From NCBI GenBank assembly GCA_945787715.1, contig CALZJE010000061.1, positions 1 through 49,465 on the forward strand: DNA of 49,465 nucleotides, given 5' to 3'. The notes below the pieces were generated by a model. That model made no database searches and was not told the DNA's origin. It was given only the letters and a program-made list of their open reading frames with translations. Source of the DNA: an uncultured Ectothiorhodospiraceae bacterium. Lineage in GTDB: Bacteria; Pseudomonadota; Gammaproteobacteria; S012-40. A program made the position numbers and the translations under genes. Positions 20,032-49,465 of this stretch are shown piece by piece. Each line of letters opens with the position of its first letter. Position 1 is the first letter of the stretch.

Positions 20032-21021
20032 TTAGAAAAAACCATGTAATTTTTCTAAATAAGCACGTGCTGCGCTTGTTCGATCAGGTTGACCTTCATC
20101 AGACAATACCTCTACATGCGTTTTTTTGTTCTCTTCTTTCAACTGCAATCGATAAACAGAACGGTCACTATCTGATAACGAGAAACCAGGGATAAAATCG
20201 CTAGTTCTACCGCCCTCTGTGGCTCTGATATCAATCCAGCCCTGAGTTTTATCTTTCAGAGTCACTACATGCCCCATACGATCAATTGCCTGTAGAGTAA
20301 ACTTCCAGGATCGATTAAACGATTCCTTCATGAGAATATGGGGAATATCGCCTTCTAAGACCAATCTTGTATCATCCGCCCTTTTTGCAGCACTAGCGAG
20401 TAATGCTTCTTTTCGTTCTGCATTTAATCCAAGATAGCTTAGTAAGTCACCCAACACTTCGATCTCAATTTCAGGATCATAGACATCATCAGCCCAGCCC
20501 CGAACCATTTCACCTTCTATCACATCTACCTGCATGCCACGGTAAGATAAATAGAGTTCCGTTGTTCTGCCACCGTCGCTAGACTCTAAACGAACGCGAA
20601 ATCGATCCTTAACAAATTTTGAGTCATAATTTTCCACCCATTCTGTTTCCATCAATCCTAATTTGATGTTCTTCCATTTCAAGGGCACTTTGTTAGAAAT
20701 CCAGTAGTTTCTTACCTCATCCCAAACATCGTCAGGTGCAGCCTCAATACGCAACCAACGCAACTTTCCATCTTTTTCAAGAGAGACGTTTGCGCCATCG
20801 GCAAGCACAACTTTTTTTCGTTCTATGGATGCAACCTGTGGAATTTCGAATCCACTATCAACACTTAAAAGCGTTAGATCGGGAGGTACTTCTAAAGGTG
20901 GCAAGCTAGGTTGATGCTTGTAAAAATTACCGCCTTTAGATGAACAACCAACTAAAGTTACTACTAAAATAGCAACTGAAGAAACAAGCAACACAGAAAT
21001 GATACTGCGGAAGAGTGACAT
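20032..21021 (-). CDS. bamC: BAM complex lipoprotein BamC
   Basis: This 329-residue lipoprotein has a signal ending in VTLVGCSSKG. The unstructured N-terminal segment after the lipid Cys (HQPSLPPLEVPPDLT) corresponds to the part of BamC that contacts BamD. Two helix-grip domains follow. It is an accessory subunit of the outer-membrane protein assembly machine. Sequence conservation of BamC is low across proteobacteria, so the call rests partly on its position: it starts 8 bp after dapA and is followed by purC, exactly as in other gammaproteobacteria. Confidence 0.88.
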   Translation of the reverse strand: MSLFRSIISVLLVSSVAILVVTLVGCSSKGGNFYKHQPSLPPLEVPPDLTLLSVDSGFEIPQVASIERKKVVLADGANVSLEKDGKLRWLRIEAAPDDVWDEVRNYWISNKVPLKWKNIKLGLMETEWVENYDSKFVKDRFRVRLESSDGGRTTELYLSYRGMQVDVIEGEMVRGWADDVYDPEIEIEVLGDLLSYLGLNAERKEALLASAAKRADDTRLVLEGDIPHILMKESFNRSWKFTLQAIDRMGHVVTLKDKTQGWIDIRATEGGRTSDFIPGFSLSDSDRSVYRLQLKEENKKTHVEVLSDEGQPDRTSAARAYLEKLHGFF

Positions 21022-21029
21022 AGTATTCC

Positions 21030-21905
21030 TTAAATTAATTGAGCGCTTTTCATTGCCTGGCGAAGCTTGGTGTGATGCTCCGTAGAAAAATGAGTAAGAG
21101 GCAATCGAATACCCGGTGGGATCAAATCCATTTCAAAAAGAGCCCATTTGACTGGGATAGGATTCGCTTCTAAAAACAGGTCATGATGCAAACCCACTAA
21201 ACATGAATTTAACTCTCGCGCTTTATCCATGTTGCCAGCTAATGCAGCCACGAATGCCTCGTGCATACGTGCTGGAGCGACATTGGCTGTCACAGAAATG
21301 ACGCCTTTTCCACCATGAGCGATAGCTTCGAGTGCTATATCATCATCACCACTATATATACCAAAATCTGGCCCACATAATTCAGCGAGTTTTTCGATAC
21401 GCGCTAAACTACCTGTCGCTTCTTTAACGCCAATGATATTTTTGATTTTGGAGAGTCTTTGTACAGTTTCAGGCAACATATCAACCGCAGTTCGACCAGG
21501 AACATTATATAATATCAATGGCAGATCCACTGATTCAGCTAAATACTTGTAATGCTCATACAAGCCATTTTGGGTAGGCTTGTTATAATATGGAGTAACG
21601 ACCAAACAGGCATCTGCACCGGCTTCGCGCGCGCATTCACCCAACTTCTTAGCTTCAGCAGTAGAATTTGATCCTGTTCCAGCAATCACTGGCACACGTT
21701 TATTCGCTTTTTCAACAACAAATCGAACAACGTCGCAATGCTCTTTTGTCGTCAAAGTGGCAGACTCACCAGTCGTACCAACAGCAACAATTGCATCCGT
21801 GCCGGCATTTACATGCATTTCTACTAATGAGTCCAGTGCCGCAAAGTCTATGGACCCATCAGGATGCATGGGTGTAACCAGCGCCACCATACTGCCTTGA
21901 AACAT
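21030..21905 (-). CDS. dapA: 4-hydroxy-tetrahydrodipicolinate synthase
   Basis: The ATG at 21905 (MFQGSMVALVTPM) aligns with the known DapA start and gives 291 residues. A longer frame from a TTG at 21965 is rejected. Visible are VGTTGESATLT (pyruvate pocket), the Tyr of ILYNVPGRTAVD and the Schiff-base Lys in GVKEATGS. It condenses pyruvate with aspartate semialdehyde in lysine and diaminopimelate synthesis. It is the first gene of dapA-bamC-purC and diverges from bcp. Confidence 0.97.
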   Translation of the reverse strand: MFQGSMVALVTPMHPDGSIDFAALDSLVEMHVNAGTDAIVAVGTTGESATLTTKEHCDVVRFVVEKANKRVPVIAGTGSNSTAEAKKLGECAREAGADACLVVTPYYNKPTQNGLYEHYKYLAESVDLPLILYNVPGRTAVDMLPETVQRLSKIKNIIGVKEATGSLARIEKLAELCGPDFGIYSGDDDIALEAIAHGGKGVISVTANVAPARMHEAFVAALAGNMDKARELNSCLVGLHHDLFLEANPIPVKWALFEMDLIPPGIRLPLTHFSTEHHTKLRQAMKSAQLI

Positions 21906-41524: not shown

Positions 41525-44335
41525 ATGGAAAAAACATACAATCCTCACGCTATCGAACAACGCTGGTACGAAATCTGGGAATCGGAAAATTATTTTGCGC
41601 CTTCAGGCGATGGAGACCCCTACTGTATCATGATCCCACCACCCAATGTGACAGGTAGTCTACACATGGGTCATGCGTTTCAAGATACGATAATGGATTG
41701 CCTGATCCGCTACAACCGCATGAAAGGCAATAACACTTTATGGCAAGCCGGAAGTGACCACGCGGGAATTGCGACTCAAATGGTCGTCGAACGCCAATTG
41801 AATGCAGAAGATAAAACCCGCCATGATTTAGGCCGTGAAGATTTCATCAAGCGCGTCTGGGATTGGAAAGAAGAATCCGGTGGCAACATCACGCGCCAGC
41901 TACGTCGCATAGGCTCATCACTGGATTGGTCTCGCGAACGTTTTACTATGGATGAAGGCCTATCCGACGCCGTGAAAGAAGTGTTTGTCCGCTTGCATGA
42001 AGAAGGCTTAATTTATCGCGGCAAACGACTTGTTAACTGGGACCCCGTTCTTCACACCGCCGTTTCTGACCTTGAAGTTATTTCAGAGGAAGAGAACGGC
42101 TACATGTGGCATATGCGCTATCCACTTGCTGATGGAACAGGACACATCGTTGTTGCGACTACACGCCCTGAAACCATGCTGGGCGATGCAGCCGTTGCTG
42201 TCCATCCCGGTGATGATCGCTATAAACATCTCATCGGCCAGCAAGTTATCCTTCCACTTGCTAATCGAAAAATCCCGATTGTAGCAGATGATTATGTTGA
42301 CCCTGAATTCGGAACAGGGATTGTTAAAATTACCCCAGCACACGACTTTAATGATTACGATGTGTGGACTCGCCATCGCGACACCTCACCCCTGCAAGCA
42401 TTACCGAATAATGGCTTAATAAATATTTTTACCCTTAGTGCAGCGATTATCGGAAAAGATGACCCACACAGTAATCTTATCCCTGAAGAGTTCCAAGGCC
42501 TAGATCGCACAGAAGCACGTAAACTGGTGATTGAAGAATTAGGCACACAGGACCTGCTGGAAAAAACAGACGACCACAAACTGATGGTACCGCGTGGCGA
42601 TCGCTCGGGTACGATCATCGAACCGCTTCTAACCGACCAATGGTATGTCAAGGTTGGCCCATTAGCAGAACCTGCGATTAAAGCGGTTGAAACAGGCGAT
42701 ATAAAATTCGTTCCAAACAACTGGAAAAACACCTACTACGACTGGATGAACAACATTGAAGACTGGTGTATCTCACGCCAAATCTGGTGGGGTCATCGTA
42801 TTCCTGCATGGTACGATGAAGAAGGCGATGTTTATGTAGGTCGTAGCGAACAAGAAGTTCGTGAAAAACATAACCTCCCACAGAGTACAAAACTTTCTCA
42901 GGATGAAGACGTTCTCGACACTTGGTTTTCTTCAGCACTTTGGCCCTTCTCCACACTAGGCTGGCCAGAGAACACTGATGCTGTTAAAACATTTTATCCA
43001 ACCAGTGTTTTAGTCACCGGCTTCGATATCATTTTCTTCTGGGTTGCCCGTATGATCATGATGGGTCTTAAATTCACGGGCGAAGTCCCTTTCAAAGAGA
43101 TTTACATCCACGGCTTAGTGCGAGATTCACACGGCCAAAAAATGTCGAAATCAAAAGGCAACGTTCTCGACCCTATCGATTTGATCGATGGAATTGATCT
43201 TGAAGACCTCGTTAAAAAACGCACCAGCGGCATGATGCAACCAAAAATGGCTGCAAAAATTGAAAAGTCGACGCGTCAAGAGTTTGCAGATGGAATCCCT
43301 GCCTTTGGTACCGATGCGATTCGCTTTACTTTCGCTTCGCTCGCATCAACCGGTCGCGACATTAGTTTCGATCTGCAGCGTGTAGAAGGAAATCGAAACT
43401 TCTGTAACAAAATCTGGAATGCTGCACGTTATGTTCTCATGAACACCGAAGGACAAGACTGCGGCCAAAAAGGCGGCAGCATTGAATTAAGCCTTGCTGA
43501 TCGCTGGATTATCTCTCGCATGCAACAAACCGAAACACAAGTTAATCAATACATTTCACAATACCGTTTCGACCACGCTGCACAAGCAATCTATGAATTC
43601 ACGTGGAACGAATACTGCGACTGGTATCTGGAACTCTCCAAACCTGTCATGCAAAATGAAGAGAGCAGCGAAGCTGCATTGCGCGGAACACGCCAAACGT
43701 TAGTGCAAGTGTTAGAAACATTGTTACGTTTAGCTCATCCGATCATGCCATATATCACTGAAGAGATCTGGCAACGCGTTGCAAAACTCGCAGGTGTTGA
43801 CGGTGATACCATCATGCAACAACGCTTCCCTGAAGCAGATGGATCAAAAGTTGATGAAACCGCCGTTACTGAAATGGAATGGGTAAAAGAGTTTATCCTC
43901 GGTGTGCGTAAAATCCGCAGTGGCATGGACATCTCCCCCGGCAAACCCTTACCTGTTCTTTTACAAAACGCATCAGCACAAGATCAAGCATTCCTGAGAA
44001 ACAATCAGATCTTCCTCACTCGCCTAGCGAAACTGGAAAGCATCGAAGTTGTTGGGGATGATGCGCCAGAATCTGCAACGTCACTAGTCGGCAACATGAA
44101 AGTATTAATCCCCCTTGCTGGTTTGATTGATAAAGATGCTGAAATCGCACGACTCAACAAGGAGATTGAAAAACTAGATAAATTATTGAAAGCTGTTGAG
44201 AGTAAACTCTCCAACAAAAACTTTGTTGATCGCGCACCTGAGGTTGTTGTTATAAAAGAGAAAGAGAAAGCGGAAGAGATACAAAGTTCTGTTAAAAATC
44301 TTCAGGAGCAATTAGCTCAGATTGAGGCGATGTAA
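41525..44335 (+). CDS. valS: valyl-tRNA synthetase
   Basis: This 936-residue class-I synthetase starts at ATG 41525. An upstream GTG/TTG frame to 41465 is rejected because it lacks family homology. The HIGH motif is in [15 protein letters not shown], the KMSKS motif in [11 protein letters not shown], the editing domain contains [10 protein letters not shown], and the C-terminal coiled coil reads [18 protein letters not shown]. It charges tRNA-Val in the cytoplasm. It closes the pepA operon and has a strong terminator. Confidence 0.98.
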
Positions 44336-44350
44336 ATTTTTTGTTTTAGT

Positions 44351-44387
44351 AAAAAAGCCCTACGAATTACGTAGGGCTTTTTTTTCA
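44351..44387 (+). terminator. rho-independent terminator of valS
   Basis: AAAAAAGCCCTACG and CGTAGGGCTTTTTT with loop AATTA, followed by a T run, 16 bp past the valS stop. It marks the left limit of the cassette region. Confidence 0.9.
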
Positions 44388-44794
44388 TGTCAATCTTTTA
44401 AATTTTTAACACCCTACCCTTCACAATATTCTTTCATCCCGCACTAAAGTAAGAAACATTGTCTACATTTTCGTCATGAAATTTCCTAATATCAATTCAT
44501 CGAAAATAAATTGCTGATAGACGACAGCTTTTCCTAGATTATTACGAAAGTTTTTCGTATTTCACTCCTCAAAAACCATTAGATGGGTTATCCTTAATTC
44601 AGAGATGACATAATCTAATTGTTAACTAAATGAAAAGAGTGGGAAAAATAGATTTAAAACTTTCAAACCGGCAACTGTTTAATGTTTGTGCGCGCGGCAT
44701 ATACGAAAACATGACGTGTTTTATCACGAAAATATACTGATTGATTATTAAGCACAATTCGGAGAATTACGAAAGTTTTTCGTCTACTTGGCTG
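44388..44794 (+). promoter_or_regulatory. attI-like leader of the cassette array, with two 18-bp repeats
   Basis: About 400 bp without a gene. ATTACGAAAGTTTTTCGT occurs twice, at 44541-44558 and 44766-44783; its core ACGAAA-GTT-TTTCGT is itself an inverted repeat. The second copy ends 10 bp before the first core site (GTTAGAA, 44794-44800). Further ACGAAAA copies lie near 44703 and 44727, with an inverted repeat AAAACA/TGTTTT at 44706-44722. ATGACG (44711) and TATACT (44733) could be a promoter reading into the array. No integrase gene or remnant is recognised here. Confidence 0.5.
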
Positions 44795-44828
44795 TTAGAA
44801 GACATTTGAAATAACACATATAATATAA

Positions 44829-45821
44829 ATGAAACACGAACAGGAAGTTATACAAGCAGTTAAAGAGTTTGCGTATTCAGTCAATTCTGGAAGTAAAGTA
44901 ATTGCGGATATGTCTACGTTAATTAAGGCGACTTCGCGTTTACCACTCACCAATTTGGATGTTTGGGAAAGGCTCATTCGTTGGGAATTTCAAAAAGAAC
45001 TAAGCAATTCGACACCTGCTAGATGGAAAATATGGAAACAACCTACACCATTCTTAACTTGGATAGATTTATGTAGTGGTGATGGATATAAACGTGAAAA
45101 GACTATTCGTACACTATCCGGCGGTGCTCCTAATAGCTTTTTCTTTGCTTTAGCGGTTCGGAGACTTAATGACTGGGTTCCTCAAGTCCGAGAAGCCGCA
45201 CGCGAAAAACTCCTGTTAATTGCAAAAGAAACCGACCCTGAAAAAGTGGCAGAGGCATTATGTATCACTTTTCCCCACTGGAATTCCTGGGGACGAATGG
45301 AAGATAGCGACAAACAAATACTGCTCAAAATCGCATCACTAGAGAATATAGCTAATTCAATTAAGTTCAGAATTCTTACGGCCACAGCAGGACCAATGAC
45401 ATCGATATTTTCGCAAATAGGACGTGTTGAGGTCGTCGATCAATTCTTAGAAGAAATTTCGACACGTGCTATACAGCCATCAGTTAGAGCGAAGGCATAT
45501 AGATCATTACTAGAAGGTAAAATGGTGTGGTTTGAGGGAAGAAAATGGGAATGGACTGATATACAATATTGTCAAGGTAGGCTTAAGCCAATCATATCCG
45601 AGCGCCCCTTATCTATTGAAAGCCCCTTTTTAGATACTCTAAAACGTGCTGCAATGGATAGTTCCCCGATAGTAAGGAGGGTTGCTGGTGAATTACTCAT
45701 ACGAAAGCTGGATATAGTAGGAACAGAGGCTGAACTATTGGCCAAAAAACTAGCATCTGACTTATCACCATCGGTATCAGAACGAGGGAAATTTGTTCTA
45801 AAAAAACTGGGGATCAAATAA
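44829..45821 (+). CDS. HEAT/ARM-repeat-like protein (cassette 1)
   Basis: This 330-residue all-helical protein has no signal peptide or TM. The helical hairpin repeats resemble HEAT/ARM, for example RRLNDWVPQVREAAREKLLLIA, AAMDSSPIVRRVAGELLIRKL and KLASDLSPSVSERGKFVLKK. An aromatic segment (WERLIRWEFQ; RWKIWKQPTPFLTWIDLCSG) precedes them. It is a likely protein-binding scaffold. It fills cassette 1 and starts 35 bp after the first core site. HEAT-like cassette genes are common in arrays, some with defence roles, but that is not shown here. Confidence 0.75.
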   Translation: MKHEQEVIQAVKEFAYSVNSGSKVIADMSTLIKATSRLPLTNLDVWERLIRWEFQKELSNSTPARWKIWKQPTPFLTWIDLCSGDGYKREKTIRTLSGGAPNSFFFALAVRRLNDWVPQVREAAREKLLLIAKETDPEKVAEALCITFPHWNSWGRMEDSDKQILLKIASLENIANSIKFRILTATAGPMTSIFSQIGRVEVVDQFLEEISTRAIQPSVRAKAYRSLLEGKMVWFEGRKWEWTDIQYCQGRLKPIISERPLSIESPFLDTLKRAAMDSSPIVRRVAGELLIRKLDIVGTEAELLAKKLASDLSPSVSERGKFVLKKLGIK

Positions 45822-45838
45822 AAATCTAGAAACATGTC

Positions 45839-45950
45839 TTCTAACAAAACCATCAATGGGATTTTTGTAAGCGCTGGCCATTTTGTGGCGCTAACGCTTA
45901 TGCCACAAAATAGCCATCACTCACAAAAACCCCTTATGGTGGCGTTATGT
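45839..45950 (+). repeat. attC site 1
   Basis: R'' TTCTAAC at 45839 and R' GTTATGT at 45944. ATGTCTTCTAAC is complementary to the cassette start GTTAGAAGACAT (12 bp). The inner arms are GCCATTTTGTGGC and GCCACAAAATAGC. Confidence 0.85.
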
Positions 45951-45988
45951 GAAATTTTTTTCCAAAATCACAGAGAGATAAAAGTCAA

Positions 45989-46284
45989 ATGAACACGAGT
46001 ATTACAAAATTCAAGAAGCAGTCAATTCAGTATTAGAAGACTTTGGATTCTCAATAAATACTGAGGAAAATAGCTTTGATGATTACGGTTCAACTAAAAC
46101 TTTATTCGAGTCTAAAGACAATCGCTTTATCTTTGGCTGGAACGGAAAGGAAGGATTTAGCTACGCGATAATTTGGAAAAATGCAAGCTGGAAAACACTT
46201 AGAACTAGCGTAATTGAGTCCAACGAGGCTGACTTCTTGAAATCAATTGAATTACTAATATCTGAAATCAAAGAGAATCTTTAG
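45989..46284 (+). pseudogene. small cassette gene with a frameshift at its second codon (cassette 2)
   Basis: A continuous frame from 45991 to the TAG at 46282-46284 codes for about 97 residues (EHEYYKIQEAVNSVLEDFGF, later FIFGWNGKEGFSYAIIWKNA and ADFLKSIELLISEIKENL) but has no start codon; a stop lies 12 bp upstream. An ATG at 45989 is in another frame and soon ends. One missing A in ATGAACACGAG would give MKHEYYKIQEAV, which resembles the start of the cassette-1 protein (MKHEQEVIQAV). So it is a broken gene or a one-base sequence error. Function unknown. Confidence 0.6.
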
Positions 46285-46396
46285 AGGTAAAAATTGGATA
46301 ATATGCATACTCTACTCTGAAAGAATGAAAACTAATTGGCAAACAAAGAGCTAATTATATAGACTAAGAATATATATTAATAAGTGGATTTATATA

Positions 46397-46579
46397 TTGA
46401 ACACCAATAGAAGTAAAACTTTCATAATATTAGGTAGCATACTACTCCTTATTGGATTCTATTTAGTGTATCAAAAAGACACTTTAATTTTACCATCTTA
46501 CGTTCGCTATGGTTTTAATTTGTTTGGGTTTGGTTTTTTAATGGTTGGTTTAGAGGAAATGGTGAGAAAACCTAAATAG
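46397..46579 (+). CDS. 60-residue membrane protein (cassette 2)
   Basis: It starts with TTG and has no strong ribosome site. Two TM helices (TFIILGSILLLIGFYLVY and RYGFNLFGFGFLMVGLEEMV) with a short loop and a basic end (RKPK). It is the second gene in the cassette, 112 bp after the frameshifted gene and 12 bp before attC 2. Function unknown. Confidence 0.55.
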   Translation: MNTNRSKTFIILGSILLLIGFYLVYQKDTLILPSYVRYGFNLFGFGFLMVGLEEMVRKPK

Positions 46580-46591
46580 CAATGTAACTTC

Positions 46592-46694
46592 ACATAACAA
46601 TACCTTCAATGTGACCTTTTTAAGCGCTGCCGTTTTGTGCTTAAATAGCACAAAACAACAACGCTTAAAAATGCACCTTAAGGCGGCGTATCGT
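46592..46694 (+). repeat. attC site 2 with decayed R' core
   Basis: R'' ACATAAC at 46592 is complementary to the start of cassette 2 (10 bp). The arms are almost identical to attC site 5. The R' core is GTATCGT (46688-46694) instead of GTTRRRY, so the crossover point is damaged. Confidence 0.8.
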
Positions 46695-47300
46695 ACGACA
46701 ACGATTTCCCTTCGATGAGTATCTCTTTTTGAAAAGACGTTCTGAATTTTAATGAGTTTCATTTAGTCCGCAAAATGATTCTTCACGCACCCTACTTTCG
46801 CTCTAAAATTATTAATAAGAAGGTTATTCAATAATTTCGTTTATATTTAAAGTTTGAATCCTATTCACGCAAATAATTAAATTCATCAATTCGCCACTTT
46901 CTTCATTTCATATCAACGATGTACTTACGTCAATTTGTGTAGTTGGTGTAATTCGACTTAGGTGAGTTTGAAATGTCCGAGTTCAGTTTTCTTTTCAAGT
47001 AAGGTATAGTATTCCTATAAATGGTCGAATAGTTTGCACCACTGTTTGAACGGCTCAGGTTCAGCGTTTTACTTTAAATTTTCTATATGTCGCAAGTTTT
47101 GAAAACACTGTAACGTAGCATCAAGCTATGATTTCCTGTTTAAATACGGTTAAAATATAGGCATCCAAGTAACCGGAAGTTAGAGTTCTACTACAGAATG
47201 ATTGATTATCCATCAGTCCGCCAGCGGGTAGCACTTTTTTCTGTTCAAGGAGGCAAGTTCGGTGTATTGTTTAACCAGTAGCGTGTACGAGGGTCGTCGC
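46695..47300 (+). other. ORF-less cassette 3, copy of the cassette at the window end
   Basis: 606 bp with no frame above about 40 codons that is not part of an attC. 46739-46953 matches 49245-49459 over 215 bp without net indel, about 85% by eye, including a perfect 31-bp stretch. Compared with that copy, the 5' end has lost roughly 55-70 bp, including its core site. It may carry a promoter, an RNA, or nothing. Confidence 0.7.
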
Positions 47301-47407
47301 GTCTAACAATTCGTTCCATTTGACCTTTTTAAGCGCTGCCGTTTTGTGTTTGAATAACACAAAACAACAGCGCTTAAATAAAAAGGCAACTGAACGAGGC
47401 GTTAGAG
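47301..47407 (+). repeat. attC site 3
   Basis: R'' GTCTAAC (47301) and R' GTTAGAG (47401). GTCGTCGCGTCTAAC would pair with a cassette start GTTAGACGCGACGAC, close to the start of the copy at 49128 (GTTAGTCGCAACGAG). Cassette 3 itself no longer has that start. The arms share CCATTTGACC and GGCAACTGAACGAGG with site 4. Confidence 0.85.
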
Positions 47408-47931
47408 GAAAACGAAAATTTATAATAAATATTTTAATGAAGTCTTTCCAAATACTTGGCTTTTATCTTCTTTTCCTATTAAAAACATCATTCTTTTCAC
47501 ATCTCGATTTTAACTCATTCTCCACCGTTAGCCTTGCAATCTCGTTTAAGTGAGTCAAGCAAATTTTTTATTTAACAATATTGCTAATCATCAGTCTACC
47601 CTCTTCAAAGATCAAAGTTATGTAAATCGAGCGCGGTAAAGCTGTCATTCGTTTAGGGGAGTTTTGAAGGGAGAGTTTCGCAAAGCCATCTGCTTGTTTT
47701 ACATTCTTCTTGATCATTGCCTGCTCAATTAACCCTTGAAACACATTATTGTCTTAATTCGTGCAATCCTGATAGAATTTACCAATATTTTGGGTGTGGT
47801 GTTTCAGAGTCGGTTCTGTTTTAAAAAATCGTGCTTAATTTAACCAACAATGGTTATGAGGCGTTCCAATGTTTGAGCAGGCTATCTTTATACACATTAA
47901 CAATACATTGTCTAGTACGAGGGAAGTTTTC
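47408..47931 (+). other. ORF-less cassette 4
   Basis: 524 bp without a convincing gene. A 38-codon frame from the ATG at 47438 (MKSFQILGFYLLFLLKTSFF) has no ribosome site, and longer frames only arise by running through the attC arms. The cassette is bounded by two good core sites, so the unit itself is intact. Confidence 0.6.
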
Positions 47932-48048
47932 CTCTAACAATTCGTTCCATTTGACCTTTTACAGCGTCGCTTGGTTTGCGAATTCGCTACGCTCATTTTA
48001 TCGCAAACCAAGCGACGCTGTAAAAGGCAACTGAACGAGGCGTTATAT
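47932..48048 (+). repeat. attC site 4 with a 27-bp perfect stem
   Basis: R'' CTCTAAC (47932) and R' GTTATAT (48042). GTTTTCCTCTAAC pairs with the cassette start GTTAGAGGAAAAC (13 bp). The central arms pair perfectly over 27 bp (CCTTTTACAGCGTCGCTTGG and on), unlike the bulged stems of the other sites. Confidence 0.85.
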
Positions 48049-48059
48049 GCAAAGAAAAA

Positions 48060-48542
48060 ATGAACATCATCATTAGAAATGCACATCCAAATGAATCCAT
48101 AGAACTTGGTAAACTAGCTATTCGTTCCAAAGCATTCTGGGGCTACTCAGATGATTTTATGAAAGCTTGCCATGATGAATTATTAATTCCCTCAGAGAAA
48201 ATCGAATCTGATAATTATTACTATTTTGTTGCAGAGAATAAAAATCACATAGTTGGATACTACGCTCTTGAAAAATTACCAAACCTCGATTTTGAATTGG
48301 AAGCCCTATTCGTTGAACCGAAATTAATTGGAACAGGTATTGGAAAGGATTTAATGAATCACGCAAAAAAATTCGCTGCTTTAAAAGGCGCTCATACTAT
48401 AATTATTCAAGGAGACCCGAACGCTACAAGTTTCTATTTGGCGGCCGGTGGGAAATTAACCGGCGAAAAGGAGTCGGTGAACATTCAAGGTAGATTTTTA
48501 CCGACATTTGAAATTTGTCTATCTAGTGACAATGAGATATAA
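48060..48542 (+). CDS. GNAT family N-acetyltransferase (cassette 5, first gene)
   Basis: This 160-residue protein has the GNAT fold. The start IIIRNAHPNESIELGKLAIRS is followed by motif A with acetyl-CoA loop FVEPKLIGTGIGKDLM (pattern Q/G-x-x-G-x-G/A) and a late motif B near FYLAAGGKLTGE. It transfers an acetyl group to an unknown amine. It starts 18 bp after the core site and is followed 9 bp later by a second GNAT gene. Confidence 0.88.
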   Translation: MNIIIRNAHPNESIELGKLAIRSKAFWGYSDDFMKACHDELLIPSEKIESDNYYYFVAENKNHIVGYYALEKLPNLDFELEALFVEPKLIGTGIGKDLMNHAKKFAALKGAHTIIIQGDPNATSFYLAAGGKLTGEKESVNIQGRFLPTFEICLSSDNEI

Positions 48543-48551
48543 ATATTCATA

Positions 48552-49037
48552 ATGAAAATTCAATCTTACAAAGACACCGATAAAATAGAGCTTAATAGAT
48601 TGGCACTAGAAGCATTCGCAGAATTTAAAGGCCAATATGACAATTGGAGTCAGGTAGAATCGAAAGTATGCAATATGTCTTCACTTTCCGACAAAGGTGA
48701 AATAATAGTCGCTCGAAAATTAGACACTATAGTGGGAGCAATTGTTTTTGTCCCTCCCGGACTTAACAATAACCCTAATATTGATAACTCTTGGGCCTCA
48801 ATCAGAATGCTGGTAGTATCACCAGAACATAGAAGAGAAGGTATTGGCAAACATCTTACTAAATTGTGTATTCAAAAAGCTAAAGATATTGGTGCAAGTA
48901 ACATTGCTCTACATACAAGTACAATAATGGAAATTGCCCTACCAATGTATCTTGAAATGGGTTTTATTAAAATAAAAGATGTAGAACCAATCTCAGGTGT
49001 AGAATATTCAATTTATAAACTAGAACTTTGCATATAA
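48552..49037 (+). CDS. GNAT family N-acetyltransferase (cassette 5, second gene)
   Basis: This 161-residue GNAT protein has the acetyl-CoA loop VSPEHRREGIGKHL in motif A and MYLEMGFIKI in motif B. It is related in fold, but not closely in sequence, to the first enzyme. The stop codon overlaps the attC 5 R'' region, as is usual for the last gene in a cassette. The substrate is unknown; two acetyltransferases in one cassette may act on related targets. Confidence 0.88.
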   Translation: MKIQSYKDTDKIELNRLALEAFAEFKGQYDNWSQVESKVCNMSSLSDKGEIIVARKLDTIVGAIVFVPPGLNNNPNIDNSWASIRMLVVSPEHRREGIGKHLTKLCIQKAKDIGASNIALHTSTIMEIALPMYLEMGFIKIKDVEPISGVEYSIYKLELCI

Positions 49038-49134
49038 CAAAACCTTCAATGTGACCTTTTTAAGCGCTGCCGTTTTGTGGTAAATTACCACAAAACAACA
49101 ACGCTTAAAAATGCACCTTAAGGCGGCGTTAGTC
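49032..49134 (+). repeat. attC site 5
   Basis: R'' ATATAAC (49032) and R' GTTAGTC (49128). CTTTGCATATAAC pairs with the cassette start GTTATATGCAAAG (13 bp). Arms match attC site 2 almost base for base apart from the loop. Confidence 0.88.
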
Positions 49135-49465
49135 GCAACGAGAAATTATTTTCGTTATATTTTTAACGTTTAAGCTAAACATTTCGTCATCGAGGTCGAA
49201 TGAAAAGGTTTTTCCCTTCAATGAGCCTCTCTTTTTAAAATGAAGTTCTGAATTTTAATGAGTTTCATTTAGTCCAAAAAATAACCTTTCAAGTCCACTA
49301 CTTTCGCTCAAAAATAATTAATAAGATGGTTATTCCGCATTTTTGTGTGTACTTAAAGTTCGAGTTCTATTCACGCAAATAATTGAATTTTTCGATTCGC
49401 CACTTTCATCGTTTCATGTCAACTATGTGCTTACGTCAATTTGTGTAGTTGGTGTAATTAAGTTT
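49135..49465 (+). other. start of cassette 6, ORF-less, second copy of cassette 3
   Basis: Its 215-bp core (49245-49459) matches 46739-46953. It keeps the 5' region with core GTTAGTC that cassette 3 has lost. No gene is seen up to the window edge; its attC lies beyond. Confidence 0.65.

Follow-up and report, generated by a model that had tools for sequence, protein, structure and literature searches.

Two diverged copies of a 249-bp block in ORF-less gene cassettes of an integron array beside valS in an uncultured Ectothiorhodospiraceae bacterium

The cassette array downstream of valS

The DNA stretch analysed here (the window) is the entire contig C61, 49465 bp in length, of the 4.4-Mb draft genome, in 227 contigs, of an uncultured Ectothiorhodospiraceae bacterium. 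The valS gene ends at position 44335 and is followed by a row of units, each of which is closed by a long imperfect hairpin of one and the same family. The hallmarks of attC sites, the recombination sites of integron cassettes, are an imperfect hairpin, ends of the form YAAC...GCGTTA, and a position behind each cassette. The five hairpins of the row, which are 103-117 nt long including a few flanking bases, share the ends YAAC...GCGTTA (in one of the five, GCGTAT). A strict attC pattern gave zero matches; the attC sites were called from a relaxed hairpin scan, which produces many false matches in the window and in other contigs, and in the window we accepted only the five hairpins that resemble one another in sequence as well as in their attC ends. 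The features of the array are the following.

44765..44799, + strand: attI-like site, matching the end of contig C66 with 91% identity across 35 nt; start of the array
44829-45821: HEAT-like ORF of cassette 1 (Pfam 19.8 bits, below the 21-bit cut-off)
45839..45950, + strand: attC 1, imperfect hairpin; its ends, YAAC...GCGTTA, are in register with those of the other four; closes cassette 1
Between attC 1 and attC 2: cassette 2, a small-ORF cassette closed by attC 2
46592..46694, + strand: attC 2, hairpin of -32.4 kcal/mol; ends cassette 2
46690..47402, + strand: cassette 3, ORF-less, about 713 bp, contains copy 1 and is closed by attC 3
46705..46953, no strand: copy 1 of the repeat block, 249 nt, 84.3% identical to copy 2, ungapped
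47301-47407, + strand: attC 3, hairpin; ends cassette 3
47403..48043, + strand: cassette 4, gene-poor, likewise lacking a clear gene, closed by attC 4
47932-48048, + strand: attC 4, hairpin of -60.8 kcal/mol; ends cassette 4
48044..49128, + strand: cassette 5, two GNAT acetyltransferase-like ORFs (48060-48542 and 48552-49037), closed by attC 5
49032-49134, + strand: attC 5, hairpin; ends cassette 5
49129..49465, + strand: cassette 6, contains copy 2, ORF-less so far, truncated by the contig end at 49465
49211..49459, no strand: copy 2 of the repeat block, 249 nt, matches copy 1, in cassette 6

Cassette 1 starts after the G of GTTAGA in the attI-like site. The 23-mer TTTTTCGTCTACTTGGCTGTTAG occurs exactly at 44776-44798 and at C66:22029-22051, and has no third site in the genome even with up to 3 mismatches. 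On C66 it lies at the contig end, about 290 nt from a match to an integron integrase gene, intI (20803-21741), and the corresponding region at 44776-44798 may be read as an attI-like site. An exact 18-nt direct repeat, ATTACGAAAGTTTTTCGT, is present at 44541-44558 and 44766-44783, its second copy lying within the attI-like site; it could be an integrase-binding repeat. A tblastn search with pieces of IntI against 44301-44860 detected no intI in the interval that separates valS from the array, and the array is therefore without an adjoining integrase of its own on the left. Thus, a complete chromosomal integron, with intI and attI beside the array, was not found on this side, and on the right the array is truncated. 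Matches to integron integrase above the family cut-off (265 bits) are present on contigs C66, C34 and C220 (on the last, positions 1-250 of 315), and C184 has a partial match below the cut-off. Weaker matches occur on other contigs of this genome and, none of them above the cut-off, in 14 control genomes. As the four integrase genes or fragments (L030, L031, L028 and L029 on C66, C34, C220 and C184, respectively) are different, being only 38-58% identical to one another, the genome probably contains several integrons.

The attC 2 and attC 5 sites, behind which the two copies of the block are located, are 94% identical across 99 nt. The right core of attC 2 (46686-46694) reads GCGTATCG and not GCGTTRRR, and this degenerate core suggests that the junction may recombine poorly. 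Cassette 3 has an attC site at either side, with GTAT in place of GTTR as its left core, and the right-hand side of cassette 6 runs past the contig end. The same type of attC is also found on contig C167, behind an ORF pair that, by eye, resembles a toxin-antitoxin pair.

All six cassettes are AT-rich, with G+C contents of 31.5-40.1% versus 45.8% for valS. Both ORFs of cassette 5 match Pfam GNAT families above the cut-off. In cassette 2, a frame some 99 codons long (about 45988-46285) shows no in-frame start codon by eye and gave no Pfam family above the cut-off; it is perhaps a gene whose start is broken. The longest frame with a start codon (ATG, GTG or TTG) wholly inside cassette 3 encodes 37 aa; a 70-aa frame on the - strand (46550-46762) belongs mainly to cassette 2 and attC 2 and overlaps the block by only 58 nt. 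No Pfam family scored above the cut-off in the stop-masked frames of cassette 3 that were submitted. At the contig end, copy 2 has an open-ended frame of 41 aa. By the frame scan, and by Pfam in the frames submitted, the copy-bearing cassettes are thus devoid of a substantial ORF. The frames of cassette 4 amount to 77 aa (overlapping attC 3), 67 aa (overlapping attC 4) and, on the - strand inside the cassette, 58 aa; in sequence this cassette is unrelated to the copies, with which it shares only short chance matches (E 0.33 or more).

The repeat block and its two copies

The two copies are identical at 210 of 249 positions and differ by 39 substitutions (23 transitions and 16 transversions) with 0 gaps. 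With an E-value of 4.1e-74 when the entire genome is searched, their match is far beyond chance. The original prediction had described two diverged copies, about 85% identical by eye over 215 bp, that differ by substitutions only and in which no reading frame is kept. The 215 bp (46739-46953 and 49245-49459) turned out to be the right-hand part of the 249-nt block, holding 33 of the 39 differences (84.7% identity), and the description was borne out: both copies have stops in all six frames, at 4-9 per frame. The term "ORF-less cassette" is also technically correct, as the copies are placed behind or between the attC sites of an integron array. The alignment proved not to be "end to end", because only 249 bp of the approximately 713 bp of cassette 3 are matched by copy 2. 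On the left, the attC site and the block are separated in copy 2 by about 68 nt that are absent from copy 1. Beyond the right edge (46953/49459), only 2 of the 6 bases that remain up to the contig end agree, which has a P of 0.007 under continued 84% identity; this break is an apparent one, as bases at the contig end may be unreliable. With an indel lying just left of the block and the similarity apparently ending at its right, the earlier argument that the missing indels point to selection on length or structure is weak.

Relatives of the block were searched for in other collections. No relative was found in plasmids (72,556 records) or phages (50,697 records), and two exact patterns had no match in viral contigs or genome contigs; these plasmid, phage and contig collections may omit records close to the source genome. 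There was likewise no relative in the one other genome of the genus, in the 12 other genomes of the family (the order comprises the same 13 genomes, including the source genome), or among the other 368 genomes of the class (369 with the source genome). Of the 397 other genomes in the phylum sample, 3 had matches with E-values of 3.8e-4 to 8.3e-4, which, being short (24-39 nt), we counted as chance. The class and phylum searches scored up to two first-look candidates per genome, and weak relatives could escape them.

Several lines of evidence lead us to conclude that the copies are very probably paralogous ORF-less gene cassettes of an integron array, whether or not they once carried a gene: the attC array and its ORF content, the attI-like site that it has in common with an intI-bearing contig, the lack of a stop-free frame, the presence of the same attC type on C167, the AT-richness of the cassettes, and the precedents published for Vibrio. 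An integron integrase whose gene lies elsewhere in the genome would have brought the cassettes in and would be able to excise them, and the copies have drifted apart by about 16%. Three points speak against this reading: the array has no integrase beside it on the left, the cassette of copy 2 is truncated at the contig end, short of a closing attC, and the core of attC 2 is degenerate.

Substitution pattern and alternative explanations

The 39 substitutions are distributed unevenly over positions modulo 3, in the proportion 22/5/12 (P 0.0012, whether against random positions or shuffled gaps; P 0.001 with the base spectrum kept), and the leading phase is the same in every third of the block (8/2/3, 9/3/5 and 5/0/4). 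Read in frame 0 of the - strand, this becomes 12/5/22 at codon positions 1/2/3, an order that is usual for coding DNA. As six periods and several other statistics were examined, part of this 3-periodicity may be luck. Two stretches of the block, of 31 nt (46739-46769) and 30 nt (46924-46953), are identical between the copies and in part longer than expected, with a P of 0.14 for the longest and of 0.005 for the second longest. Together, the periodic substitutions and the long identical runs give some sign of uneven or constrained change. A 3-periodicity between two copies that are filled with stops runs counter to a plain non-coding reading and would not be expected of a plain promoter cassette.

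One explanation is that the copies are decayed gene cassettes: their common ancestor would have carried a gene, probably on the - strand, of which they would now be functionless pseudogene remnants. This view competes with a use of the cassettes as promoters, not with their identity as ORF-less cassettes. It draws on the phase bias (P about 0.001) and its coding-like order, on the report that some gene-less cassettes resemble degenerated genes (PMC11014356), and on the long frame lacking an in-frame start that is seen by eye in the adjoining cassette 2. However, in the two frames that agree with the phase, most stops are common to both copies (- frame 0, 5 of 7; + frame 1, 4 of the 5 that copy 1 has), which would mean that the frame was broken before the copies split, and the later divergence should then not be periodic. 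Moreover, the total number of stops, 39 in copy 1 and 35 in copy 2, is at the level of chance, base-shuffled versions of copy 1 having a mean of 38.7 (sd 4.2). Synonymous changes exceed expectation by no clear margin (11 versus about 7.5, P about 0.1), and the block has no phase in base composition (P 0.70 and 0.20). Nor was a protein relative found with the frames submitted. Four stop-masked translations of the block gave no Pfam family above the cut-off, and the best match of the further stop-masked frames, PF06636, reached 15.1 bits (E 0.01) against a cut-off of 22.7. The - frame has no relative in the other 368 genomes of the class, and that of copy 1 has no match in plasmids. For the + frame, the class genomes gave a sole weak match, in genome G303 (23.7 bits, with an E-value of 5e-5 for a single genome out of 369), which we rejected as chance because it is antisense to a lipoamide-dehydrogenase-like gene. 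Taken on both sides, a decayed gene is an explanation that deserves attention but that we consider unlikely.

A second alternative would make the 249-bp block a small mobile or repeat element, sitting inside two cassettes that are not otherwise related. This would account for the similarity ending on both sides of the block, and for the remainder of cassette 3 having no second match in the genome assembly. Against it, the assembly contains just two copies, each within about 80 nt behind an attC site, and no terminal inverted repeats were seen by eye between the block ends, which makes such an element very improbable.

A further alternative, that the block encodes a structured small RNA, takes up the proposal of the original prediction that structure is under selection, as for a non-coding RNA. 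The conserved runs of 31 and 30 nt could be functional segments of such an RNA, and a small RNA borne on a cassette has a precedent in sRNA-Xcc1, from an integron cassette of Xanthomonas (PMC12444791, PMC6557892, PMC8876359). The folding results did not support the proposal. Single-strand folds of both strands of both copies were no better than those of shuffled sequences (z +0.41, +0.79, +0.46 and +0.62), and a two-sequence consensus fold was no better, or weaker, than that of shuffled columns (z +0.69 for the + strand, +2.61 for the - strand), in a test that rests on two copies and has small power for covariation. Searching 44400-49465 against Rfam returned 25 matches up to an E-value of 5, all below the gathering scores; 24 of the 25 are on the attC hairpins, to microRNA and CRISPR-repeat models, and were taken as an effect of long hairpins. 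The sole match within either copy (46881-46934 in copy 1; E 1.5) scored 17.4 bits, under the gathering score of 50. No terminator-like site was detected in 49030-49465, and the two in cassette 3, against 1.3 expected, are located at least 160 nt to the right of the block. On the folding results we reject a structured RNA, to which we assign very little likelihood.

Finally, it is most improbable that the block is a case of hidden coding, in which the copies are under codon-like constraint despite their stops and belong to a family that is, or until recently was, translated in an unusual way, as short stop-bounded peptides or by read-through.

Possible use of the cassettes and comparison with known systems

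The likeliest use of these ORF-less cassettes, which we put forward tentatively, may be to provide transcription start points for downstream cassettes, by analogy with published gene-less cassettes. Cassette 3 would then drive cassette 4, and next the two GNAT genes, without a nearby integron promoter. The main alternative is that they are relic or neutral passenger DNA. The original prediction had also named a promoter-bearing cassette, and the analogy with the cassettes described in PMC11014356 and PMC6557892 makes this plausible. Scans for sigma-70-like sites gave 5 in 46580-48060, versus 4.5 in shuffles, and 0 in 49030-49465, versus 1.2. The best score kept in both copies was 7/12 on the + strand and 8/12 on the - strand, and this score or more was reached with shuffled columns in 300 of 300 and 273 of 300 trials, respectively. 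A conserved sigma-70 promoter was therefore rejected, no site being shared by both copies beyond chance. It is stated in PMC11014356 that the promoters of gene-less cassettes cannot be identified in silico, and hence our negative scan counts little against promoter activity.

The precedents for such activity come from other hosts. Blanco et al. (2024, PMC11014356), whose criterion for an ORF-less cassette is the lack of an ORF over 210 bp, found most of the 30 cassettes that they measured to have promoter activity on the sense strand: 8 of 10 from V. cholerae, 3 of 4 from V. parahaemolyticus, 11 of 13 from V. vulnificus and 3 of 3 from V. fischeri. Tansirichaiya et al. (2019, PMC6557892) described promoter activity in some ORF-less cassettes of Treponema, one of the three in their reporter assay being inactive, and Michael and Labbate (2010, PMC2945992) reported that coding and non-coding cassettes are both expressed. 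The present cassettes share with the promoter cassettes described for Vibrionaceae (PMC11014356) and Treponema (PMC6557892) that they are gene-less, AT-rich and located upstream of gene cassettes, and their size is similar (491-666 bp in PMC11014356 versus about 713 bp for cassette 3). In those cassettes promoter activity was measured, whereas in the present ones it is proposed by analogy. A comparable likeness by description exists with the sRNA-Xcc1 cassette (PMC12444791, PMC6557892), in that it would be a non-coding product on an integron cassette; unlike in that case, the block has no support from folding or Rfam.

A close parallel is with the Vibrio arrays studied in PMC1382264 (BMC Evol Biol 2006), in which non-coding cassettes are reported to account for 6-49% of the cassettes and to tend to be paralogous; one of them matches two further cassettes of the same array at 84% and 88% identity. 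They were described as having no homologues outside the vibrios, and it was proposed that they may be selfish, carry promoters or be transcribed. Like them, the present cassettes have no ORF, are bounded by attC sites, occur as diverged copies in one array, and have homologues that are narrowly confined. They differ in their host and, as far as searched, in sequence. Also, the Vibrio homologues described there are similar over their whole length and the present pair over 249 bp only. In addition, the non-coding cassettes of that study were defined by the lack of an ORF over 150 bp, of a BLASTX match and of a mutation pattern like that of synonymous codons, whereas the present pair does show a weak codon-like pattern.

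In summary, gene-less cassettes, some of which activate neighbouring genes, are a known kind, and the pair described here is largely ordinary. It adds an example in which paralogous gene-less cassettes are located upstream of gene cassettes in an array with an attI-like site and no adjoining integrase. If their promoter activity proves true, promoter cassettes would reach beyond the cases described for Vibrionaceae and Treponema (PMC11014356, PMC6557892). Should further copies show the codon periodicity as well, the question of whether such cassettes are truly non-coding would be reopened, and if they were indeed translated in an unusual way, the "non-coding" cassettes of integrons would include a hidden coding class.
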